The position numbers were made by a program, and so were the translations under genes. The notes beneath the pieces were generated by a model. The model was not told where the DNA came from, made no database searches, and was given only the letters and a program-made list of their open reading frames with translations. DNA of 64,000 nucleotides from Pseudobutyrivibrio ruminis CF1b (GTDB lineage: Bacteria > Bacillota > Clostridia > Lachnospirales > Lachnospiraceae), in NCBI RefSeq assembly GCF_000424005.1, contig NZ_AUJB01000008.1, forward strand, positions 1-64,000, written 5' to 3'. Positions 6,991 to 28,195 of the stretch are shown piece by piece; within the stretch, counting starts at the first letter, position 1; each line of letters opens with the position of its first letter.

Positions 6991-8484
6991 ATGGTAGTAC
7001 AACACAATATGCAGGCAGCTAATGCTTCAAGAATGTTAGGAATAACAACAAATGCTCAGTCTAAGTCTACTGAGAAACTTTCATCAGGTTTTAGAATCAA
7101 CCGTGCAGCAGATGATGCAGCAGGTCTTTCAATTTCTGAAAAGATGCGTAAACAAATCAGAGGTCTTGACCAGGCGTCAACCAACGCATCTGACGGTATC
7201 TCAGCAGTACAGACCGCCGAAGGTGCCCTCACAGAAGTGCACTCTATGTTACAGAGAATGAATGAATTGGCAGTCCAGGCAGCAAACGGTACAAACTCTG
7301 AATCTGACCGAGGATCCATCCAGGATGAGATTCTTCAGTTAACAACAGAAATCGACCGTGTCGCTGAAACGACAAAGTTCAATGAGACCTATCTTCTCAA
7401 GGGGGATTACGGCACTAAGACTCAGGTAATCGCAGCTCATGATGCAGGTCTTGCTGGTACAATCACACAGAACACTACAACAGCCACATTTACAATGAAT
7501 GCCCTTGCAATGGGTGATACAGTTACAATTGGTGGCGTTAAGTACACAATTGGTGTTGAAGGTGGTGACGTAAAAACACAGCTCGCTAACGCATTAACAG
7601 TTATTGGCACATCAGCAGAAAAACTGGAATACGGTGAAGTTGTAAAGATCGACGGTAAGTCATTCACAATCGCAGCTAAGACAAATGCCGACACATCTGA
7701 AGTAGCAAAGACAGAAATTAACAAGTTTGCAAGTCAGGGTTCAACAATCGAGTACAACGGCAAGGTTGCAAAATTGTTCAGTACAGAGCTCGGTGATGCA
7801 CCAGCAGATGGAGTTGATGGCAGAGACGCAACACTTATTACAGCAGCAAAGGCTTATCAGCTCATGGCAAATGAACTTAGAGCAGCTTCATCAATCGGTT
7901 GTGACTCAATCATTGATGTTCCTAAGGCTTATTTCCAAGGCACAGAATTTGAGGACAAAATTCCAAATGGAGCTGATGAGGTTAACGGCCTTAAGCCAAC
8001 AAGTGTTAGCCTTGGAAACGGCTTATACAAGAAGGTTGAGTTCGTAATGAAGAAGGGTACTGCAGTAGTTCAGAAGAGTTTATCATTCAATCTTCACGTA
8101 GGATCTGATGCTGACATGACAAACAAGATTGGTGTTACAATCGACTCAATGACAGCTACAGCTCTTGGTCTTCAGGGACTTAACGTTGGTGATGCAACTG
8201 GTAAGGCAGCAACATATGCGATTGACGTTATTTCTGATGCTTTAGCAAAGGTATCAGCACAGAGATCTGGTCTTGGTGCTATTCAAAACAGATTAGAGCA
8301 TTCTATCGCAAATCTTGATAACGTAGTTGAGAACACAGATGCATCTGAATCACGTATCCGTGATACAGATATGGCTGAAGAGATGGTTACATACAGCAAG
8401 AACAATATTCTTGCTCAGGCAGGCCAGTCAATGCTCGCTCAGGCAAATCAGGCAACACAGGGTGTTCTTTCATTACTTCAGTAA
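6991..8484 (+). CDS. Flagellin (paralogue 3)
   Basis: Filament subunit of 497 residues with the same conserved ends (MVVQHNMQAANASRMLGITTNAQ; C-terminal DTDMAEEMVTYSKNNILAQAGQSMLAQANQ) but more divergence than between copies 1 and 2, such as SSGFRINRAAD in place of ASGYKINRAAD and a final LLQ instead of ILG. The codon choice is also more C-ending than in copies 1 and 2. The central domain is variable (about residues 140-380). The start follows AAGGAGGTAGAA. The gene has its own sigma-28 promoter and its own terminator. It may be a minor or alternative filament protein. Confidence 0.97.
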   Translation: MVVQHNMQAANASRMLGITTNAQSKSTEKLSSGFRINRAADDAAGLSISEKMRKQIRGLDQASTNASDGISAVQTAEGALTEVHSMLQRMNELAVQAANGTNSESDRGSIQDEILQLTTEIDRVAETTKFNETYLLKGDYGTKTQVIAAHDAGLAGTITQNTTTATFTMNALAMGDTVTIGGVKYTIGVEGGDVKTQLANALTVIGTSAEKLEYGEVVKIDGKSFTIAAKTNADTSEVAKTEINKFASQGSTIEYNGKVAKLFSTELGDAPADGVDGRDATLITAAKAYQLMANELRAASSIGCDSIIDVPKAYFQGTEFEDKIPNGADEVNGLKPTSVSLGNGLYKKVEFVMKKGTAVVQKSLSFNLHVGSDADMTNKIGVTIDSMTATALGLQGLNVGDATGKAATYAIDVISDALAKVSAQRSGLGAIQNRLEHSIANLDNVVENTDASESRIRDTDMAEEMVTYSKNNILAQAGQSMLAQANQATQGVLSLLQ

Positions 8485-19438: not shown

Positions 19439-20203
19439 ATGGAAAAGAAGCCTATAGTGTTGGCTGTTGCTGGTAAAGGTGGAGTAGGTAAGACTTCACT
19501 TGCGTCGGTGATGGTCAAGTTGTTAGTGGAAGCTTATCCAGACAAAAAAATCTTAGCAATCGATGCGGACCCAGCTGTTGGTTTGTCCACAGCACTTGGC
19601 GTGGAGCCAGAGCTTACTCTTGATGATATCAGGAAGGAAGCTGTGGAGGCGGCTGAGAATGGGGATGCCAAGGCCACTGTTGAGGTACTTGGTGAAGCCA
19701 GATATCGCATTTTCGATGCTATGGTTGAGATGGATGGCTTTTCTTTTATTGCAATCGGACGTCCTGAGGCTGCAGGCTGCTATTGCAAAATCAACACATA
19801 TCTTAAAGAGGTCATCGCTCAGGTGGCCGACAATTTCGATTATATCGTTATAGACGGCGAGGCTGGTATCGAGCAGATCAATCGCCGTGTCATGGAAAAG
19901 GTTACACACCTTGTTCTTATTACCGATTCTAGTAAGAAGGGCTGTGGAGTAGTTAAGACAATCAAAGAAGTGGCAGACAACCTTGTTATGTACGACGAAA
20001 TCGGAGTAGTTGTAAATCGTGTTCCATCCGAGGACGTTTTACAGTACATGGATTTGGGAGATATTCCACTTTTGGGTTGGATTCCAGCAGATGCCAATCT
20101 TACAGAGCGCGATCTAAAAGGAGAATCTGTCTTTTACATTCCGGGAGAAGCACCAATCGTAGAGGGCCTGCGTAGCTCTCTTAAGAAGATGGGTGTTTTA
20201 TAA
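19439..20203 (+). CDS. CooC-like nickel-insertion ATPase
   Basis: ParA/MinD-type ATPase of 254 residues closest to CooC, the ATPase that loads nickel into carbon monoxide dehydrogenase. The deviant Walker A is AGKGGVGKTS (residues 11-20), followed by AIDADP. The segment GRPEAAGCYC places a CXC pair at C114 and C116, where CooC dimers bind nickel. YIVIDGEAGIEQINRR is the switch II region of CooC. It opens a run of genes on one strand to 28156 that includes a HypA-like chaperone and an acetyl-CoA-synthase-like protein, but no CO dehydrogenase is present in the window. So it probably matures some nickel or Fe-S protein of this operon; the target is unknown. Confidence 0.85.
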   Translation: MEKKPIVLAVAGKGGVGKTSLASVMVKLLVEAYPDKKILAIDADPAVGLSTALGVEPELTLDDIRKEAVEAAENGDAKATVEVLGEARYRIFDAMVEMDGFSFIAIGRPEAAGCYCKINTYLKEVIAQVADNFDYIVIDGEAGIEQINRRVMEKVTHLVLITDSSKKGCGVVKTIKEVADNLVMYDEIGVVVNRVPSEDVLQYMDLGDIPLLGWIPADANLTERDLKGESVFYIPGEAPIVEGLRSSLKKMGVL

Positions 20204-20216
20204 AATTTTTAAATGA

Positions 20217-20302
20217 GCTGGTAGCTATCAATCTCTAAGTGTTGCACAGCGAGACGTGTTAGTCGAGCGGAGCAATATCTTAGGATTGAGAGCGTAACCA
20301 GC
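20217..20302 (+). repeat. 86-bp imperfect palindrome between the CooC-like and dehydratase-like genes
   Basis: Outer arms GCTGGT (20217-20222) and ACCAGC (20297-20302); inner arms TCAATC/GATTGA, CTAAG/CTTAG and GTTGC/GCAA. The loop is about 26 bases and ends in GTTAGTCGAGCGG. The whole would fold into one long imperfect hairpin in RNA or a cruciform. There is no T run, so it is not a simple terminator. It looks like an interspersed repeat or an mRNA processing/stability element inside the operon. Confidence 0.65.
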
Positions 20303-20324
20303 GGAGTAGGGAGAATTGAATATT

Positions 20325-21512
20325 ATGAAGGATTTAAAGCATTTATACTACTTTGAAAACCTTCTAATGGACGCTGATAATGATCTGGTTAGACAGGCCC
20401 AGGCTGAGGGCCGTGTCTGCGTTGGTTCAGTTTGTTATCAGATTCCAGAAGTGTTGATGAACTTAGGTAATGCTTTCACTGTAAGACTTCGTGCGCCACG
20501 TACAGGTTCCATGGAAATGGGAACCTATTACCTGACCAGTCTTTTATGTGAATATTCCAGAGCATTGCTTGAGCGTGCCATTGAAGGCGGATATCAGTTT
20601 TTAGATTGCCTTATGGCACCAGACGGATGCACCATGATCAACCGCTGCGTTGAGAACATGGAGCTCCTTAAGATGAATGACAAGGAGCATTTCTTCTACC
20701 AGTACCTAGAGGTTCCAATGAAGGCTGATGAAAATGGATTAAACCTCTATGTTGGACAGTGCAGAAGCAAAATCCTTGAACCTTTAAATGAAAAATTTGG
20801 TGTTGATATAAGTGATGAAGCTCTTAGAAAGGCAGTGGAGGAACACAACAAAATCTGCCGTCTTATCACAGAGCTTGGAAACTTCCGTAAGGAAGAGAAG
20901 CCTCGTATCACAGGATACGAGTTCCACATTATTACAATGTGTACTTATGTGTGCCCTCACGACTTACTTATTGAGAAGCTTGAGGAGACACTTGAGGAAG
21001 TCAAGAATCGTCAGCCAGACGAGAAGTGGCCATTTAGAGCAAGAGTCGCTGTGGTTGGTTCAGAGATTGACGATATTGATATGATTAAGCTTGTTGAGGA
21101 TTCAGGAGCTTATGTATGCGCAGACCGTTTCTGCTTCGGTTCATTGCCGGGACGAGAGGAGATTATCCTTAATGATGAGGAGGATGTTCTTACTCAAATT
21201 TGCCGCCATTATATGATGAGCTGCATGTGCCCACGTCATATGGACACACCTAAGATGAACCGCAGACGTGAATACGTGGACGAAATCGCGCGAGAATACA
21301 AGGCAGATGGAATCATCTATGAGCAGATGAAATTCTGCGACCCATGGGCATATGAGAGAATGGTGGGAAGTCATGTTTTACGCGACGAATATGGTTATCC
21401 AGTTCTCACTATCGACCGTCCATACGCAGTAGGAAATTCCGGACAGTTACGCACCCGTGTACAGGCCTTCGTGGAGAGTATCGAAATCAAAAAAATCCAG
21501 AGGGAGGTGTGA
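20325..21512 (+). CDS. 2-hydroxyacyl-CoA dehydratase-family protein, subunit 1
   Basis: A 395-residue protein of the HgdB/BcrB (PF06050) family, whose members hold [4Fe-4S] or double-cubane [8Fe-9S] clusters and perform low-potential reductions or dehydrations driven by ATP. Cysteines that could hold a cluster include VCVGSVC near 32-37, DCLMAPDGC near 95-102, the MCTYVCPHD segment, and EQMKFCDPWAYE, the classical family motif near the C-terminus. The ATG with AGGGAG upstream is preferred to a TTG nine bases before. It is followed at once by a 30-codon ORF and then a second family member, with the activator gene after that. No acyl-CoA pathway gene is near, so a dehydratase role is doubtful. 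Confidence 0.85.
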   Translation: MKDLKHLYYFENLLMDADNDLVRQAQAEGRVCVGSVCYQIPEVLMNLGNAFTVRLRAPRTGSMEMGTYYLTSLLCEYSRALLERAIEGGYQFLDCLMAPDGCTMINRCVENMELLKMNDKEHFFYQYLEVPMKADENGLNLYVGQCRSKILEPLNEKFGVDISDEALRKAVEEHNKICRLITELGNFRKEEKPRITGYEFHIITMCTYVCPHDLLIEKLEETLEEVKNRQPDEKWPFRARVAVVGSEIDDIDMIKLVEDSGAYVCADRFCFGSLPGREEIILNDEEDVLTQICRHYMMSCMCPRHMDTPKMNRRREYVDEIAREYKADGIIYEQMKFCDPWAYERMVGSHVLRDEYGYPVLTIDRPYAVGNSGQLRTRVQAFVESIEIKKIQREV

Positions 21513-21514
21513 TT

Positions 21515-21607
21515 ATGACGAAGTCAGAATCTACCATCACACCGACCGATGTGGCACTATTGCGGAAGCAATCGTGCCGATTCATTGTAAACGGAGGTAG
21601 AAAGTAA
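21515..21607 (+). CDS. Possible 30-residue peptide coupling the two dehydratase-like genes
   Basis: A short ORF starts 3 bases after the stop of the upstream gene behind a strong GGGAGGTG box and ends in TAATG, where its stop shares an A with the ATG of the next gene. The peptide starts MTKSESTITPTDVALL and ends IVNGGRK and resembles nothing I know. Its DNA also contains a hairpin (GGCAC-ATTGC / GCAAT-GTGCC, 21552-21577) and the ribosome site of the next gene. It may be a coupling leader or a real small protein, or it may be chance. Confidence 0.45.
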   Translation: MTKSESTITPTDVALLRKQSCRFIVNGGRK

Positions 21608-23157
21608 TGGGAAAAGCAGTCGGCAGCTCACAGCTTGGAAAGCTTTATAGTGGTGATAAAAAGGTTTTCAAGCATCGTGAATGGAGAGGAATTAAAGACA
21701 CTTGGTACGATTACACCAGATGGCTTGGAATCATGGCCATGCTGGGAAAGTTTATGCTTCATCCAAAGAATGTAAAGGGATTCTTTAGATATCGCTGGAT
21801 GCTCAATTATCTGGCTGTGCCAATGATGATTGACAAGCATTCAATGGGTCTTCGTGGCCCACAGCTTCGCATTTGTCGTGAGGAATACGATTTGGTTGCC
21901 TCAGACGTTGCAAAGCTTCTTACAAAGATCTTTTCTATGGATCAGAATCTTGGCGCAAAGCCTGAGAAGTCAAAGCATGTAGTCCTTATGGATGAAAATG
22001 AGATGACCAACATCATGTGTGGTTTCCCAAATCTTGAAGGACTTAGTTGGGAGACAGCAAGCTGTTATGTTTGCGTACTTCTTCAGGGAGATGCCATGAC
22101 ACATTATCTTGATGTAGTTCAGGAATGTGGTATGCCTGGTGATGTTTGCCCTATGCCGGCATCTGAGGCAGGTATCTGTATCGATGGAGATATGCCAATC
22201 TTTGGTAAGTGCGCTGTTCAGTGTAACACTACCTGTGATGGTTCTCTTATGGGAAATGGTGTTATTTCAAGAGCTCTTGAGCGTAATGGAATTCCAGTTC
22301 ATCAGCTTGCTACACCACTTCGTCATACTGAGCCAGGGGTACAGGACTACGCTGCACAGGAGGTTAGAAACGCTATTGCTTTCATCGAGGAGCAGACAGG
22401 AGAGAAGTTCGACTGGGATTACTACTTCGAGTGTGCAAAGCGAATCAACATCGGTGCACAGGAGTGTACAGAATGGCTTGAGCTTTCTAAGACAGATTAT
22501 CCACAGGTAATTGGAAACAACATTCTTCTTTACCGTGAGACAGAATACATGGCTATTGCTGGTAAGGTTTCAGCTTTTGCCAAGCTTGATAAAAAGATTA
22601 CAAAAATGGCTACAGAGGCCTACAAGAACAAGACAATGCTTGCAAAAGAGTACCGCCATCGTGCAGTAATCTGGGGCGTTCAGTCACAGTTCTATACAGA
22701 TTTTGTAGCATGGCTGTTAAATTGCTGGGGAATTCTTCCACTTTTTGATATGCTTACTATGGTCTCTCTTGATCCTATTTCAGAGGATGACAAAGAGCAG
22801 GCTATTTACGACATGGCTCACCAGTACGAGAACATGATTATGAGAAACCGTACCCATGGTGGTTACGAGGTTCTTCTTGATGATTTATGGCGTTACTGTG
22901 AGGAGTTCAATGCGGATATGGTAATCCTTTGGGAGCACATCGCCTGCAAGGCCCTTGATGGTATGCATGGCATGTTCGAGCAGCAGGCTCGTGAACACGG
23001 CATCAAGCTTGTTTGGGTAAACCACGATCTTTATGATCCACGCGTTATCCCACGCAAGAATCTTCGCCAGGATGTAAACCGCTACATGCGCTCAGTCCTT
23101 CGCGAGGAGCCACTTGACCCATCGTTAGAGGATTATGATGATACTAATTTATGGTAG
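21607..23157 (+). CDS. 2-hydroxyacyl-CoA dehydratase-family protein, subunit 2
   Basis: A 516-residue member of the HgdA/BcrC/double-cubane type family. The N-terminal 130 residues are an extension with basic and aromatic residues (WYDYTRWLGIMAMLGKF). Conserved parts are CAVQCNTTCDGSLMGNG (about residues 203-219) and VILWEHIACKALDGMHG (about 440-456). GGAGGTAG precedes the ATG. With the upstream protein it would form a heterodimer served by the ATPase encoded next. Compared with true dehydratases no CoA-transferase or acyl-CoA dehydrogenase lies nearby. A double-cubane reductase acting on a small molecule is an alternative; the substrate is unknown. Confidence 0.8.
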   Translation: MGKAVGSSQLGKLYSGDKKVFKHREWRGIKDTWYDYTRWLGIMAMLGKFMLHPKNVKGFFRYRWMLNYLAVPMMIDKHSMGLRGPQLRICREEYDLVASDVAKLLTKIFSMDQNLGAKPEKSKHVVLMDENEMTNIMCGFPNLEGLSWETASCYVCVLLQGDAMTHYLDVVQECGMPGDVCPMPASEAGICIDGDMPIFGKCAVQCNTTCDGSLMGNGVISRALERNGIPVHQLATPLRHTEPGVQDYAAQEVRNAIAFIEEQTGEKFDWDYYFECAKRINIGAQECTEWLELSKTDYPQVIGNNILLYRETEYMAIAGKVSAFAKLDKKITKMATEAYKNKTMLAKEYRHRAVIWGVQSQFYTDFVAWLLNCWGILPLFDMLTMVSLDPISEDDKEQAIYDMAHQYENMIMRNRTHGGYEVLLDDLWRYCEEFNADMVILWEHIACKALDGMHGMFEQQAREHGIKLVWVNHDLYDPRVIPRKNLRQDVNRYMRSVLREEPLDPSLEDYDDTNLW

Positions 23158-23169
23158 GAGAATAATAGT

Positions 23170-23958
23170 ATGAAATATTTTGGTGGATGTGATTCCGGCT
23201 CTACATACACAAAGTGTGTAATCATTGATGAGACCGGTAAGATGGTAGCTGATGTGACTCTCAAAAGCCGCATCAATGCAGTGCTCTCATGCCAGGATGC
23301 CCTTGATCAGGCGGTGGCTCAGGTTCCAGAGCTTAATAGCGCTGAGGATTTAACATATCTTGTAGGTACAGGATACGGCCGTAACAAGGTACCATTTGCA
23401 GATGAGAACATTTCAGAGATTAGCTGTCATGCCATGGGTGTGCACGTTGCAGACCCTGAGGTAAAGGCTATAATCGATATCGGTGGTCAGGACGTTAAGG
23501 GTATCGCTGTTGATACAGACGGTACAGTTCTTAACTTCGCCATGAATGATAAATGTGCAGCAGGTACAGGCCGTTTCTTCGAGGCAATGGCCAGAGCATT
23601 TGAGATGGATTTGGACGAGTTCTCAAATCTTTCTCTCAAGGCTAAAAACGTTATTCCAATCACTGCTCAGTGTACAGTATTCGCTGAGTCAGAGGTTATC
23701 TCACTTGTTGGTGAGGGTAAGCCTATGGATGAAATTGCTGCAGGTATCGAGCTTTCAGTTGCAAAGCGCTGCTTCGTAATGTCGAAGAAGGCTGGCGCTG
23801 TTGATAAGATTACACTTACAGGTGGCTGCGCAAAGAATGCGGGGCTTAAGGCTGCAATTGAGCAGGTTCTCAAGCTCAAAGTCATCGAGCTTCCAATTGA
23901 TCCACAGCTTATGGGAGCACTTGGAGCCGCTGAGTTTGCACGACAGAAAGGAATGTAG
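23170..23958 (+). CDS. Dehydratase activator ATPase (HgdC-like ASKHA protein)
   Basis: A 262-residue ASKHA ATPase of the BadF/HgdC family. These homodimers hold one [4Fe-4S] cluster between subunits and inject electrons into dehydratase or double-cubane proteins using ATP. Phosphate loops are GGCDSGSTYTKC (residues 5-16) and DIGGQDVKG (103-111). The cluster cysteines are C129 in NDKCAAGTGRF and C168 in TAQCTVFAESE, both conserved. The gene lies 12 bases after its presumed partner. Assignment of the family is firm; the role follows from the neighbours. Confidence 0.93.
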   Translation: MKYFGGCDSGSTYTKCVIIDETGKMVADVTLKSRINAVLSCQDALDQAVAQVPELNSAEDLTYLVGTGYGRNKVPFADENISEISCHAMGVHVADPEVKAIIDIGGQDVKGIAVDTDGTVLNFAMNDKCAAGTGRFFEAMARAFEMDLDEFSNLSLKAKNVIPITAQCTVFAESEVISLVGEGKPMDEIAAGIELSVAKRCFVMSKKAGAVDKITLTGGCAKNAGLKAAIEQVLKLKVIELPIDPQLMGALGAAEFARQKGM

Positions 23959-23960
23959 TT

Positions 23961-24006
23961 AGCCTTCCCCTTGAGGGGAAGGTGGCCTGAAAGGCCGGAT
24001 GAGGTG
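23961..24006 (+). repeat. Twin-hairpin repeat element upstream of the small membrane gene
   Basis: Two perfect hairpins in a row: CCTTCCCC-TTGA-GGGGAAGG (23963-23982) and GGCCT-GAA-AGGCC (23984-23996), followed by GGATGAGGTG. This resembles an interspersed repeat that I associate with many Clostridia genomes. Its GAGGTG end would serve as the ribosome site of the next small gene. Confidence 0.6.
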
Positions 24007-24012
24007 TTAATT

Positions 24013-24171
24013 ATGTTAAAAGTTTTATTAATTATTGCAATAGTTTTCATCTGCTTATTCGTATTATCGCTGATTGTATATTTCTTCAATTTGGATATGA
24101 AGCTTACAAGCGCTATTCAGCCATTACTTGCTAAGCACTACGACAAGATAAAGAGAGATAGAAAGATATAA
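24013..24171 (+). CDS. 52-residue single-pass membrane peptide
   Basis: Residues 2-26 form one very hydrophobic helix (LKVLLIIAIVFICLFVLSLIVYFF) broken here by one residue only, and the remainder is a basic cytosolic tail ending HYDKIKRDRKI. GAGGTG lies 7-12 bases before the ATG. Its conserved place between the activator ATPase and the ACS-like gene, 3 bases from the latter, suggests that it anchors or joins the complex. There is no known family that I can name. Confidence 0.65.
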   Translation: MLKVLLIIAIVFICLFVLSLIVYFFNLDMKLTSAIQPLLAKHYDKIKRDRKI

Positions 24172-24174
24172 TCA

Positions 24175-24894
24175 ATGAAGCTATATGATGAGACTATAAA
24201 GTGCATTATGTCTTCACTGGATGGGGCACCATTAAAGCAGCTTGATATCGCAAATGCGAATTGGGCTGACGCTGGTGACCACAATCTTATCCTTAGAGCA
24301 GACATGGCTTATGAGCTTGGTGGCGGTACCTGTCCAGCAGTTAGTGCAATGGGCGTCACAGCAAGCACAGAGCTTGTCTCAGCTGATGAGGTTTATCTTC
24401 TTGGTCCTGATTTGTCAGAGATTAAAGAAGACCAGCCTTATGCCAGAATTGCTCTAGTAAGGGTGGCAGAGGATAGCCTTGGGGATGGCAATGTACTTTA
24501 TAATGCTATTAGAAAAATCGAATATGTGAGATATCACATTAATCCAGAGGGGTACATGACTCGTATCTCTGCATCAAATGGCAGGGAGCCGGTTAGAGTC
24601 AGCAGGGAGGCCATTGATAAAGGTCTTGGCTTTGCCCAGGTAGGTAAGCTTTTCCTGGATAAATATCATGAAAATAAAAATATTGAAGCTGTAAAGCTCA
24701 TATTTATAACTCAGCCAGATTTTGATTACAAAGCATTGGCTGAGAATTCACGTCATCTTGAGGAGATCACTGGCACAATCGATCATATCTTCAAGAACGT
24801 GACAATGGACTGCGGAAGCTGTTCATTACAGCAGATTTGTGACGAAGTTGAGGGTCTTCGTGAGCTGCATTTTAAAGAAAGAAAGGGAGTATAA
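24175..24894 (+). CDS. Acetyl-CoA-synthase-like protein lacking most of the A-cluster domain
   Basis: A 239-residue protein that resembles the middle domain of the acetyl-CoA synthase subunit (AcsB/CdhC). The LLGPDLSE segment, the IRKIEYVRYHINPEGYM stretch, and REPVRVSREAIDKGLGFAQVGKLFLDKYHE correspond to the GPD..., IHH-INYA-GIMHIGQRD and RISKKAVE-GF-LKHIG-ILHAKY parts of AcsB as I recall them. It stops where the A-cluster domain should begin, keeping only C213-X2-C216-X5-C222 (MDCGSCSLQQICDEVEG). The later A-cluster cysteines are absent, so it cannot be a normal acetyl-CoA synthase. Neighbouring CooC- and HypA-like genes fit a nickel link. The homology is judged by eye. Confidence 0.65.
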   Translation: MKLYDETIKCIMSSLDGAPLKQLDIANANWADAGDHNLILRADMAYELGGGTCPAVSAMGVTASTELVSADEVYLLGPDLSEIKEDQPYARIALVRVAEDSLGDGNVLYNAIRKIEYVRYHINPEGYMTRISASNGREPVRVSREAIDKGLGFAQVGKLFLDKYHENKNIEAVKLIFITQPDFDYKALAENSRHLEEITGTIDHIFKNVTMDCGSCSLQQICDEVEGLRELHFKERKGV

Positions 24895-24898
24895 GGAA

Positions 24899-27781
24899 AT
24901 GCCAGAAATGAGTAAAGCAGTCATTCCACCACACATGAATGACAAGGCACCAAGCGACAAGATTATCAAGCTTGGAAGAAAAATTACAGACGTTGCTGGG
25001 CACAAGATGTTCGGCGTAAAGGTTGAAGATCCAGAGTACTGGGGTCTTGCAGAAATCGTTACAGAGGAGATGGCTGAGGTTGGTCTTACTATGAAGCTCC
25101 GCCATCATTACACATTTGCAGAAATGTGCAACATGAATCCTGAGAAGGCAAAGGACAAGGAAGCATTCCAGAAGCTTCTTGACGAGATGTCATACATCGG
25201 TCTTTTAGAGTACGATTACGGCGATCACTACGATCATAACGGACGTACAGCTGAGCCTTCAGAGAGAAGATATTGTCTTCCAATGTTCGTTCCAGGTTCT
25301 GCTGAGCTTTTCAACATGGAAGAGTCAGTTCCTGGCGAGCGTTCAAATCATAGATTAAAAGAGCATCCAGCTCTTGCATCATTCTTCGAGAGAATGACAT
25401 TCATGCCACTTGATGGTCTTACACACCTTATCCCACCAGGAGGCGCTGGTGTAGGTATGCACGTTATCCCTGTTGAGAAGGCTATCGAGTTCGAAAATGA
25501 GAAGTTAGACCTTGAGCAGATTTCATACTGGCTCAAGAAATACGAAGGCCACATCGGTGTTGGTCAGTGCTCATGCCGTGTATCAAGAGCTTGCCTTGAA
25601 GAAGGTTGCGGCGATGACGAGATGAACTGGTGTATCGGTCTTGGTGATTTCGCTGACTACTGCCGTGAGACTGGCAAGGGTCACGACATCACATACGAGG
25701 AGGCTATGCGCATCGTTGAGCGTGCTGAGACTCTTGGTTATGTTCACCAGATTACAAACATCGATGGTGAGAACAAGATCTTCGGTCTTTGCAACTGTAA
25801 CGTAAATATTTGTAATGCCCTTCGTACATCACAGCTTTTCAACACACCTAACATGTCACGTTCAGCTTACACAGCTCATGTTGAAGCTGAGAAGTGTGTT
25901 GCCTGCGGTAAGTGCGTAGAGTACTGCCCAGCTGGTGCTGTTAAGCTTGGCCAGAAGCTTTGCAAGAAGGACGGAAGCCAGGTTGAGTATCCAAAGGTAG
26001 TTCTTCCAGACAGAGTTCACTGGGGTAAGGAAAAGTATGATGAGGATTATCGTGATAACAACCGTAAGAACTGCTACGAGACAGGTACAGCTCCATGTAA
26101 GGTAGCTTGTCCTGCACACGTTTCTGTTCAGGGTTATGTAAATATGGCTAAGGAAGGACGTTACGAGGACGCTCTTGCCCTTATTAAGAAGGACAATCCA
26201 TTCCCAGCTATCTGTGGTCGTGTATGTAACAAGAGATGTGAAGCTGCTTGTACACGTGGTACAATCGACGCTCCTGTTGCTATCGACGACATTAAGAAGT
26301 TTATTGCTGAGCGTGACTTACACGCTGAGACAAGATACATTCCACCAATCGACATCCCTTCAAACCGTTTAACACAGTGGGATGACAAGATTGCTATTAT
26401 CGGTTCAGGCCCTGCAGGTCTTTCATGTGCTTACTACCTTGCAACAAAGGGTTATAAGCCAACAGTATTCGAGAAGAACAATCGTCCAGGTGGTATGCTT
26501 ACATGGGGTATCCCTTCATGGAAGCTTGAGAAGGACGTAGTTGAGGCTGAAATCGATGTTATCCGTCAGCTTGGCGTAGAGATTAAGTGCGGCGTTGAAG
26601 TTGGTAAGGATATCACTCTTGATGAGCTTCGTGCTCAGGGTTACAAGGCATTCTATGTTGCAATCGGATGCCAGGGTGGAAAGATTCCACCAATCCCAGG
26701 TACAGATGCTAAGGAAGGTATCGACATCGCTGTTACATTCCTTCACAAGGCTACAGAAGACCAGAACCAGAAGATGGATGGCAATGTAGTTGTTGTCGGT
26801 GGTGGTAACGTAGCTATCGACTGTGTGCGTACAGCTGCTAGATTTGGTGCTGGCAAGCCTCAGATGTTCTGTCTTGAGCAGAGAAATGAGATGCCTGCAA
26901 ACAATATTGAAATTACAGAGACACTTGAAGAGGATATCGCAATCAACAATGGTTGGGGTCCAAAGGAAATCCTTAAGGATGAGCAGGGCAACGTAGCTGG
27001 TATCGTATTCAAGAAGTGTACATCAGTTAAGGATGCTGAGGGCAAGTTCAATCCTCAGTACGATGAGAACGAGACTATGACTGTAGAGTGCAAGAACATT
27101 ATCTTCGCTATCGGTCAGGGCATCGAGTGGGGCGGACTCCTCGGTGATGGAAAAGAAAAGGTAGAGTTCTGGCACGGCAACTACCCAGTGGCAGATCACC
27201 TTACATACCAGACAGCACAGCCAGACATCTTTGTTGGTGGTGATGTTTACTCAGGTCCTAAGTTCGCTATCGATGCTATCGAGGCTGGTAAGTGCGCTGC
27301 TGATTCACTTCACAGATTTGTTCAGCCAGGATGCTCTATGACAATCGGTAAGAACCGTCGTGATTTCATCGAGCTTGACAAAGACAATATTCTTGTGGAA
27401 GAATATGATACAGCAGGACGTAATGAGCCTGCTATCGATACAAGCATTGATATGAAGCATTCATTTAGAGATGCTCACCTTACTCTTACAGAGGAGCAGG
27501 TTAAGGCAGAGGCTAGCCGTTGCCTTAAGTGTGGTGCGTCAGTGGTTGATGAGAATAAGTGTATCGGATGTGGTGTCTGCACAACTAAGTGTGCATTTGA
27601 TGCTATCCACCTTCACAGAACTCATCCAGAGTGCACACACATGGTTCCAGCTGAGGATAAGTTCAAGCATATCGGTGCTTACGCACTTAAGCGTGCTGCA
27701 AAGGTTGCCTTCTCTAAGAAGACAGAGGCTGAGAAGCAGGCTGAGCGCGAACACAAGGAGTATAAACGTAATCATAAATAA
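24899..27781 (+). CDS. Large Fe-S/FAD pyridine-nucleotide oxidoreductase (GltD/NfnB-like)
   Basis: A 960-residue soluble protein. Residues 1-310 are an N-terminal domain with two cysteine groups (GQCSCRVSRACLEEGC near 223-237; LCNCNVNIC near 298-305), of a type found in anaerobe ferredoxin-like proteins. A [4Fe-4S] motif CVACGKCVEYCP follows at 333-343, then the GltD-type N-terminal Fe-S domain (C400, C404, C439, C443, C447, C451). The FAD site is IGSGPAG (501-507) and the NAD(P) site VVVVGGGNVAID (about 630). A C-terminal ferredoxin motif CIGCGVCTTKC ends the protein. It should move electrons between NAD(P)H and low-potential Fe-S partners, possibly the activator ATPase of this operon. The ATG is preferred to a GTG 60 bases upstream inside the previous gene. 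Confidence 0.88.
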   Translation: MPEMSKAVIPPHMNDKAPSDKIIKLGRKITDVAGHKMFGVKVEDPEYWGLAEIVTEEMAEVGLTMKLRHHYTFAEMCNMNPEKAKDKEAFQKLLDEMSYIGLLEYDYGDHYDHNGRTAEPSERRYCLPMFVPGSAELFNMEESVPGERSNHRLKEHPALASFFERMTFMPLDGLTHLIPPGGAGVGMHVIPVEKAIEFENEKLDLEQISYWLKKYEGHIGVGQCSCRVSRACLEEGCGDDEMNWCIGLGDFADYCRETGKGHDITYEEAMRIVERAETLGYVHQITNIDGENKIFGLCNCNVNICNALRTSQLFNTPNMSRSAYTAHVEAEKCVACGKCVEYCPAGAVKLGQKLCKKDGSQVEYPKVVLPDRVHWGKEKYDEDYRDNNRKNCYETGTAPCKVACPAHVSVQGYVNMAKEGRYEDALALIKKDNPFPAICGRVCNKRCEAACTRGTIDAPVAIDDIKKFIAERDLHAETRYIPPIDIPSNRLTQWDDKIAIIGSGPAGLSCAYYLATKGYKPTVFEKNNRPGGMLTWGIPSWKLEKDVVEAEIDVIRQLGVEIKCGVEVGKDITLDELRAQGYKAFYVAIGCQGGKIPPIPGTDAKEGIDIAVTFLHKATEDQNQKMDGNVVVVGGGNVAIDCVRTAARFGAGKPQMFCLEQRNEMPANNIEITETLEEDIAINNGWGPKEILKDEQGNVAGIVFKKCTSVKDAEGKFNPQYDENETMTVECKNIIFAIGQGIEWGGLLGDGKEKVEFWHGNYPVADHLTYQTAQPDIFVGGDVYSGPKFAIDAIEAGKCAADSLHRFVQPGCSMTIGKNRRDFIELDKDNILVEEYDTAGRNEPAIDTSIDMKHSFRDAHLTLTEEQVKAEASRCLKCGASVVDENKCIGCGVCTTKCAFDAIHLHRTHPECTHMVPAEDKFKHIGAYALKRAAKVAFSKKTEAEKQAEREHKEYKRNHK

Positions 27782-27811
27782 TGATTACAGTGCAATTAGA
27801 AAGGGTAGTAT

Positions 27812-28156
27812 ATGCACGAATTAGGGATTGTATTTCATGTCGCTAAGCAGGTAGAGGAAGTTGCCGCGCAAAATGGCGCTGAGCACATCAGCGAGGTTGT
27901 TCTCTCAATTGGCGAGGTTTCTACAGTCATCCCAGATTATCTGATCGATTGCTGGGCATGGAATGCAAAGAAATATCCAAGACTTGATGGCAGCAAGCTT
28001 GTCTGCGAGACCATCAAGGCCGTTACTTTCTGCGAGGATTGTAAGCAGGAGTATGAGACAGTTGCCTACGGAAAGACTTGTCCACATTGTGGCAGCGGCA
28101 ACACATATCTTGTTACTGGTAATGAGGTAATTCTTAAAGAAGTTATAGCGGACTAA
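27812..28156 (+). CDS. HypA-like nickel metallochaperone
   Basis: A 114-residue HypA/HybF family protein, which hands nickel to enzyme precursors, classically [NiFe]-hydrogenase. It starts MHELG with the nickel ligand His2, and the zinc ribbon cysteines are C74-X2-C77 and C90-X2-C93 (FCEDC and CPHC). No hydrogenase genes or HypB are nearby. It ends the operon headed by the CooC-like gene, so a nickel protein is probably built by this operon. The gap of 30 bases from the previous gene suits co-transcription. Confidence 0.88.
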   Translation: MHELGIVFHVAKQVEEVAAQNGAEHISEVVLSIGEVSTVIPDYLIDCWAWNAKKYPRLDGSKLVCETIKAVTFCEDCKQEYETVAYGKTCPHCGSGNTYLVTGNEVILKEVIAD

Positions 28157-28162
28157 ATGAGA

Positions 28163-28195
28163 AATCCCACGGTGATGCCGTGGGATTTTTTTATG
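28163..28195 (+). terminator. Intrinsic terminator of the Ni/Fe-S operon
   Basis: A 10-bp stem AATCCCACGG / CCGTGGGATT with a TGATG loop, followed by a run of T. It closes the 19439-28156 operon. Confidence 0.92.

Follow-up and report, generated by a model that had tools for sequence, protein, structure and literature searches.

The 64,000-nucleotide stretch analysed here (positions 1 to 64,000 of contig NZ_AUJB01000008.1 of Pseudobutyrivibrio ruminis CF1b, hereafter referred to as the window) contains an operon of eight genes on the (+) strand, located at positions 19439-28156, with intergenic gaps of 121, 94, 12, 54, 3, 4 and 30 nt. The operon is composed of two separable modules. Module 1 encodes a CooC-type ATPase, two proteins of the HGD-D family (HgdA and HgdB), an activator of the acyl-CoA dehydratase activase family, a one-helix peptide and a truncated protein related to acetyl-CoA synthase (ACS), which we refer to as ACSl. 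Module 2 comprises an IsrA-like oxidoreductase and a HypA-type nickel metallochaperone. An intrinsic terminator (28159-28191, (+) strand; hairpin of -21.7 kcal/mol, z -6.2) directly follows the last stop codon; it is not among the sites reported by a consensus promoter/terminator scan of the window, which returned no more sites than were obtained with shuffled sequences. An earlier note, based on the DNA letters alone, had described this region as nine same-strand frames with short gaps and a single terminator that match no characterised system. The strand, coordinates, gaps and terminator agree with our analysis, whereas the ninth frame does not qualify as a gene (see below). Pfam and NCBIfam also agree with the families previously assigned to the genes other than that of the one-helix peptide (MinD/CooC, two HGD-D, TIGR00241, PF03598, Fe-S/FAD and PF01155), and in the open-licence literature we found no description of a system or enzyme with this combination of genes, in keeping with the view taken in the note.

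HgdA, the double-cubane-type subunit of module 1 (20325-21512, (+) strand; PF06050, E 1e-86), was assigned the ATG at 20325 as its start, although the open reading frame (ORF) listing gives a TTG at 20316. In profile searches, its best match in the PDB is BzdN (8s02_B, E 1.9e-34), followed by DCCP. The protein contains six invariant cysteines (Cys37, 75, 102, 270, 302 and 338); among 68 homologues, four of these columns hold Cys in 68/68 sequences and two in 67/68, a truncated and a masked row accounting for the missing residues. For this and the following cysteine counts, short sequences were dropped (5 for HgdA, 9 for HgdB, 5 for the activator and 3 for CooC), and near-identical relatives as well as paralogues were included, the rows thus being non-independent. 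Alignments read by eye match the six cysteines to six of six in both BzdN and DCCP; HadC keeps four, lacking equivalents of Cys37 and Cys270, and MbdN three. A study that also covers the structure of BzdNO and the roles of its subunits describes double-cubane [8Fe-9S] clusters in both BzdN and DCCP, with six Cys ligands in the case of BzdN (PMC11971306). The idea of a double-cubane protein, raised in the earlier note, thus holds for HgdA, which has all six cysteines and is predicted to carry an [8Fe-9S] cluster.

HgdB, the putative substrate-type subunit (516 aa; 21607-23157, (+) strand; PF06050, E 2.7e-34), possesses a helical N-terminal extension and three cysteines (Cys181, 210 and 447) that are present in 71/71 homologues and predicted to form a three-Cys [4Fe-4S] site. 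When its AlphaFold model (pLDDT 82.5) was compared with known structures, the top Foldseek matches were HadB (3o3m_A/3o3o_A) and BzdO (8s02_A), both of them substrate subunits. The activator (262 aa; 23170-23958, (+) strand) scores 214.9 bits against TIGR00241 (cut-off 125.4) and has two cysteines, Cys129 and Cys168, that are conserved in 75/75 homologues. With an HGD-D fold pair and a BadF-type activator bearing two conserved cluster cysteines, the set belongs to the superfamily of class I benzoyl-CoA reductases (BCR-I) and 2-hydroxyacyl-CoA dehydratases (HAD). The one-helix peptide (52 aa; 24013-24171, (+) strand, starting with the ATG at 24013) features a conserved YFFNLDMK-type motif and may be located in the membrane. 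It has no match in Pfam or NCBIfam, and a BLAST match to it adjoins ACSl in 40/40 loci with full context (defined below).

ACSl (239 aa; 24175-24894, (+) strand) matches a fragment of CdhC (PF03598, 35.1 bits, cut-off 24). Matches 1-23 obtained by Foldseek with its AlphaFold model (pLDDT 87.2) are all ACS/CdhC proteins, and the predicted fold corresponds to the middle part of ACS. Its C-terminal region contains a CxxCx5C motif whose cysteines (Cys213, Cys216 and Cys222) are conserved in 86/86 homologues. The A-cluster of true ACS involves four cubane cysteines and a Cys-Gly-Cys motif for nickel. In a profile alignment with true ACS, the C-x2-C-x5-C motif of ACSl falls on the first three of the cysteines that we take to be the cubane ligands of the A-cluster, after which ACSl ends. 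CooC (254 aa; 19439-20203, (+) strand) has a P-loop (GKGGVGKT at 12) and a CYC motif at 114-116, with CxC found in 61/61 aligned homologues; its best PDB match in phmmer is the solved CooC structure 3kje (E 4.5e-17). It therefore shows the P-loop, the CxC motif and the likeness to a solved structure that are expected of a CooC protein, with a putative role in nickel transfer. CooC proteins with a CxC motif are known for nickel.

The IsrA-like protein of module 2 (960 aa; 24899-27781, (+) strand) combines Fer4_20 and Pyr_redox_2 domains with two 4Fe-4S ferredoxin motifs and contains two CxC motifs (at 224 and 298) that are 74 residues apart. The same spacing separates Cys180 and Cys254 of IsrA, a putative isoprene reductase from Acetobacterium wieringae. 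For 988 IsrA homologues, the IsrA study reports HypA nearby in ~73% and HypB in ~56% of cases and proposes nickel at a Cys6 site (PMC10134865). Apart from the CxC spacing, the two proteins share their domain order, and the window protein displays the traits listed there for clade 9, namely an N-terminal Cys-rich region with two CxC motifs, a ferredoxin (Fd) domain, DPD-II, an FAD/NAD domain, a C-terminal Fd domain and HypA/HypB neighbours, with HypA adjoining it and HypB lying beside a paralogue. However, it is encoded in a different operon, and the likeness, drawn from domain order and CxC spacing, does not imply activity on isoprene. HypA (114 aa; 27812-28156, (+) strand; PF01155, 102 bits, cut-off 28.9) has the residues His2-Glu3 and two CxxC motifs. 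It stays below the cut-off of the TIGR00100 equivalog model (61.5 vs 88.1 bits), as does the hydrogenase-adjoining HypA-like protein of the same genome (73.2). The paralogue mentioned above, a second IsrA-like gene with 61% identity, is located on contig C7 together with HypB (L160:8251-11776); the gene next to this pair (7188-8186) shows weak matches to esterase families.

The genes of module 1 are tightly linked in evolution. In a survey of 200 genomes of the family, including that of the window (thresholds: E <= 1e-20 for HgdB and E <= 1e-3 for ACSl), ACSl was found in 18 genomes and HgdB in the same 18, with HgdB in none of the 182 others (Fisher p 5e-26). A search of 84,980 species genomes with one conserved peptide pattern retrieved 474 ACSl relatives, of which the best 80 were kept, so that the counts lean towards near relatives. 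By record title, these 80 loci come mostly from Lachnospiraceae, with some from Oscillospiraceae and a few from spirochaetes. Among the matches listed, which may omit near-identical records, the closest named relative of ACSl is that of Pseudobutyrivibrio xylanivorans DSM 14809 (95% identity). Forty of the loci had full context (at least 8 kb upstream and at least 4.5 kb downstream, with same-strand genes counted). The activator and the one-helix peptide are present in all 40, CooC in 39, HgdA and HgdB in 35, and IsrA and HypA in 26 each; L055, with 7.6 kb of upstream sequence, falls outside this count, and the opposite-strand IsrA-like genes in L069 and L104 are likewise uncounted. The core genes thus stay together, instead of scattering apart in relatives as they should have done if the earlier note had been mistaken about them. 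Given these patterns, module 1 very likely represents one functional unit.

Module 2 follows a distribution of its own. An IsrA-like protein (E <= 1e-100) occurs in 15/18 core-positive and 24/182 core-negative genomes (p 9.5e-10). Among the full-context loci, IsrA and HypA are found together in 24, IsrA alone in two and HypA alone in two. Since the association with the core is strong but loose, we read module 2 as a separate, co-transcribed reductase, which is more likely than a role as a dedicated electron donor for module 1. The single chain leading from NAD(P)H via ferredoxin to the activator, as proposed in the earlier note, was therefore rejected as the only reading: the 960-residue protein is an IsrA homologue with a Cys-rich site of its own, and 24/182 genomes have it without the core. 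Neighbours beyond the core mostly reflect a local gene order shared within Pseudobutyrivibrio, with one telling exception, a HypB-like gene found in 7/80 loci and located in six of them directly upstream of CooC (L075, L077, L079, L081, L087 and L108); the one that was scanned (L079:4340-5125) matches PF02492.

Six loci lack HgdAB beside ACSl (L044, L054, L055, L059, L089 and L101). In L044, L054, L055 and L059, CooC, the activator, the peptide and ACSl are kept and HgdA, HgdB and the IsrA-like gene are gone, with HypA retained in the first three; these four loci share their upstream flank with the window, and their downstream flank consists of related genes. Each of the six genomes has exactly one HgdB elsewhere, which is of a second type (53-55% identical) and has HgdA adjoining it, although in one case (L166) another frame lies between them. 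The genome of L101 is peculiar in that CooC sits with the second HgdAB pair, with the activator, the peptide and ACSl located elsewhere. All ten genomes tested for HgdB have one. In that of L053, whose locus has too little upstream contig to be judged, the second-type HgdB is in two pieces. The genome of the window has both HgdAB pairs (L025). Because loci without HgdAB are accompanied by HgdAB elsewhere, one set of activator, ACSl and CooC seems able to serve unlinked HgdAB pairs.

Among 398 genomes across the phylum, a threshold of E 1e-10 left only two further ACSl matches, of which one is a true ACS encoded in a frame of 748 residues. In the other, G369, a genome from another class, HgdA, HgdB, two activators, ACSl and CooC lie in a row and show 21-41% identity to the window proteins. 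ACSl, the activator and CooC stay together in this class at 30-41% identity, and 74/97 of its genomes match ACSl at 1e-5. Six of them have a lone ACSl (E < 1e-40); the remaining matches are much weaker (E 4e-15 or worse) and lie in longer frames, about 400-765 residues in length, which is the size to be expected for true ACS. CooC lies directly downstream and an activator upstream of the lone ACSl in 6/6 loci. HgdA-HgdB are found in front in L187, L218 and L222, where two genes for acyl-CoA dehydrogenases lie upstream as well; in L221 the end of HgdB is visible, and the loci L219 and L220 are truncated by the contig end. In L218 (5632-14706), a single ACSl-CooC pair lies between two sets of hgdA-hgdB and activators, the second set being directly behind CooC and the last activator 58% identical to that of the window. 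Judged by these comparisons of sequence, the gene set of module 1 is an old unit.

On balance, we favour a reading in which module 1 forms an ATP-driven double-cubane reductase with a CooC-served, ACS-derived Fe-S (possibly Ni) subunit and is accompanied by a separate NAD(P)H-dependent module 2; taken by itself, the proposal of an ATP-dependent, double-cubane-containing reductase for module 1 is probably correct. A low-potential donor, probably ferredoxin, would reduce the [4Fe-4S] cluster of the activator, and ATP hydrolysis would then drive an electron into the double-cubane cluster of HgdA, which in turn would hand it to an open [4Fe-4S] cluster of HgdB, the presumed site of substrate reduction. 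ACSl would be a subunit or partner derived from the middle domain of ACS together with the beginning of its A-cluster motif. Its three-Cys Fe-S (perhaps Ni) site would be served by CooC and may hold a substrate or intermediate. The one-helix peptide could anchor the assembly at the membrane, and a single activator/ACSl/CooC set could also act on an HgdAB pair from another locus. Module 2 may be an NAD(P)H-dependent Fe-S flavoprotein reductase with a probably nickel-assisted Cys-rich site that acts on a C=C bond; in many Lachnospiraceae, it shares the operon with module 1.

The feature of module 1 for which the open-licence literature searched offered no parallel is the combination of a reductase with a remnant of ACS; the set is a variant within the BCR-I/HAD family, not a new kind of protein. 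With class I benzoyl-CoA reductases of the bzd type (BzdNO + BzdPQ), it shares a heterodimer with predicted [8Fe-9S] and three-Cys [4Fe-4S] clusters, including the six-Cys subunit, and an ATPase activator. However, the operon has a single activator gene (the other class has two), is extended by ACSl, CooC and the one-helix peptide, and contains no aromatic-acid genes. With DCCP/DCCP-R, the likeness consists in the six-Cys pattern of HgdA, whose best NCBIfam model is double_cubane (NF040772). Yet the score of 145.9 bits (the other score being 38.6) is far below the cut-off of 350, and DCCP, as described in PMC11971306, is a homodimer with one double cubane per subunit, whereas the proteins considered here form a putative heterodimer in which only HgdA has the six cysteines and HgdB has only three invariant ones. 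As for (R)-2-hydroxyacyl-CoA dehydratase (HadBC + activator), HadB 3o3m_A is the best match of the HgdB model. This enzyme uses a single activator, as does the system in this operon. Its second subunit holds a [4Fe-5S] cluster instead of a double cubane; in HgdA, with its six cysteines, the type of cluster is a prediction. Differences are that HadC has no equivalents of Cys37 and Cys270 and that the operon contains no CoA transferase. With ACS/CdhC, finally, ACSl shares the middle-domain fold and the opening portion of the A-cluster motif, but it comprises 239 aa as opposed to about 400-730, and the rest of the A-cluster domain is missing.

Several observations weigh against the reading we favour. 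None of the scores of HgdA, HgdB or ACSl reaches the cut-off of an NCBIfam equivalog model that names a reaction. HgdA obtains 88.4/421.15 bits for BcrC, 87.7/453.8 for BzdN and 84.7/700 for HadC, the activator remains below the equivalog models for class I benzoyl-CoA reductase (178.3/578 and 154.4/380.2 bits), and HgdB is not listed for the HadB or HadC models. Filing HgdAB as BCR, HAD or DCCP was rejected for this reason. In addition, the residue three after the second Cys of HgdB, which by position corresponds to His131 of BzdO, is Ser in 68/71 and Asn in 3/71 sequences. In BzdO, this histidine adjoins the catalytic water (PMC11971306), so that Birch chemistry cannot be assumed for HgdB; because of this exchange and the low scores, the system is not filed as a class I benzoyl-CoA reductase despite its cluster layout. 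Among the matches listed, no substrate-specific gene recurs beside the core in Lachnospiraceae, and the genome encodes a CO dehydrogenase (CODH) that could be served by the CooC of the operon. Moreover, ACSl has no fourth conserved Cys, with any Cys after the motif in only 2/86 homologues, and the tails of all 87 ACSl sequences, including the reference, are devoid of Cys-Gly-Cys. This leaves the presence of CooC as the sole support for nickel in ACSl. ACSl probably carries a metal cluster, but that this cluster contains nickel appears doubtful. The description of the locus as a nickel operon in the earlier note accordingly applies to module 1 only through CooC and ACSl, given that ACSl is without the nickel-binding Cys-Gly-Cys and HypA mostly travels with the IsrA-like gene.

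These considerations lend some weight to a variant of the proposed scheme in which ACSl, with a plain Fe-S cluster devoid of Ni, serves only in docking or electron transfer and CooC acts in the Fe-S assembly of the double cubane. The missing nickel ligands of ACSl and the position of CooC next to HgdAB, away from ACSl, in the genome of L101 fit this variant, whereas the conservation of CxC in all 61 CooC proteins, a motif typical of CooC proteins acting on nickel, and the placement of CooC immediately behind ACSl in 6/6 loci of the other class speak for a link to nickel; we consider the variant possible, if somewhat less than probable. A departure in the opposite direction would be a double-cubane reductase with a truncated A-cluster domain whose CooC-loaded Ni has its ligands completed by HgdB, creating a Ni-Fe-S site that works at potentials like those of BCR. 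In anaerobic bacteria, those of gut and rumen among them, such a site would reduce a small molecule that is unactivated and possibly free of CoA, or attach C1 units to it; we regard this idea as a long shot. One might also suspect a conventional benzoyl-CoA reductase or 2-hydroxyacyl-CoA dehydratase to which accessory genes have been added, given that HgdA, HgdB and the activator are clear members of the superfamily and that acyl-CoA dehydrogenases adjoin the versions from the other class. But HgdA scores far under the BcrC, BzdN and HadC models, its six-Cys pattern is missing from HadC, neither a CoA transferase nor a ligase was detected among the operon genes by Pfam and NCBIfam, and to our knowledge ACSl and CooC are part of neither described system, all of which renders this explanation unlikely. 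Somewhat less probable still is a function of module 1 in maturing or repairing the IsrA-like enzyme, with HgdAB and the activator supplying strongly reducing electrons and CooC, ACSl and HypA supplying metal for its Cys-rich site. The shared operon and the statistical association of the IsrA-like protein with the core would be explained in this way; however, the 24 genomes with an IsrA-like protein and no core are matched by 3/18 with the core and no IsrA-like protein, to which come 3/10 further core genomes without one at E <= 1e-100 (G200, a 2.2 Mb metagenome-assembled genome (MAG) that is perhaps incomplete, G203 and G205). The three HgdAB loci of the other class, furthermore, have acyl-CoA dehydrogenases nearby and no IsrA-like gene.

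The remaining alternative, according to which CooC and ACSl belong to CODH/ACS metabolism and HgdAB are bystanders, calls for a look at the wider genome. The absence of CO dehydrogenase and hydrogenase genes asserted in the earlier note applies to the operon but not to the genome. A CODH gene is located at C1:111,492-113,591 (L179:9493-11595; TIGR01702, 499.8 bits vs cut-off 478), ~47 kb beyond the end of the window on the same contig, with no CooC within 19.5 kb around it and neighbours that read as an ABC transporter from their sequence. Contig C10 carries a membrane-bound [NiFe]-hydrogenase-like cluster (partial match to PF00374, 49 bits; neighbours PF00346, PF01058 and PF00146), which we read as Ech-type and which has HypF and its own HypA-like gene. 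CooC and ACSl are proteins of CODH/ACS families, and in the other class true ACS is frequently found in ACSl-bearing genomes (at least G369, G643, G646 and G623), as might be expected if the two belonged to this metabolism. On the other hand, a full ACS was not found in the genome of the window, whose single PF03598 match is ACSl itself, nor was a CODH/ACS operon that uses these genes, a finding that the earlier note had named as fatal to its view. CODH is present in 6/18 core-positive and 35/182 core-negative genomes (p 0.22) and hence not significantly associated with ACSl, whereas HgdB tracks ACSl perfectly and the neighbourhood is kept across classes. A role of the core in CODH/ACS maturation was rejected in view of the missing ACS and the lack of association, and we regard the bystander explanation as very improbable indeed. 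The catalytic subunit of this CODH has a His-rich N-terminus, and a close version of it (64-100% identity) occurs in 11/200 genomes of the family, including that of the window.

If the ATP-driven double-cubane reductase we favour is correct, module 1 would add a widely spread second heterodimeric family with the same predicted cluster layout and an ACS-derived partner, opening a route to asking what double cubanes do. The operon also allows one to ask if parts of ACS can function beyond the Wood-Ljungdahl pathway. The rumen genera concerned are known for biohydrogenation, and the IsrA homologue found in them is a testable candidate for the reduction of conjugated C=C bonds in this environment. 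Its identification with the rumen conjugated-linoleate reductase is speculation; the literature listings and abstract openings we consulted named no gene for this enzyme.

The ninth frame of the earlier note, a 30-codon overlapping ORF (21509-21607), falls between hgdA and hgdB. The corresponding stretch is missing from the same junction in 7/7 aligned relatives, in which HgdA runs straight into HgdB, and positions 21499-21588 ((+) strand) match the GA-cis RNA family (RF02987) with 43.9 bits, above the gathering score of 34.7. For these two reasons, the ORF was rejected as a gene and is read as a lineage-specific, RNA-like insert. GA-cis may behave here as a small mobile or repeat element; in the 143,536 bases of seven related loci, no Rfam family was matched. 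The insert alters the C-terminus of HgdA. A long single hairpin (20204-20315, 112 nt, (+) strand; minimum free energy (MFE) -42.9, z -6.4) separates cooC from hgdA and is possibly a repeat element or a regulatory RNA. Between the genes for the activator and the one-helix peptide, a GC-rich palindrome (23965-23986) is followed by a second small hairpin; the palindrome is single-copy in the window (<=3 mismatches) and looks like an inserted repeat unit.

Some of the related loci show features of their own. In L047, L087, L092, L110 and L172, frames of hgdA, hgdB, the activator gene or isrA are split in two, either because of sequencing errors or because the genes are decaying; in Butyrivibrio fibrisolvens 16/4 (L047 and L172), this applies to hgdB, isrA and the second hgdA. 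In a Pseudobutyrivibrio MAG (L167:11419-16423), nitrogenase-like genes of the NifH type (PF00142) and with PF00148 follow an S-adenosylmethionine synthetase gene near the second hgdAB pair.

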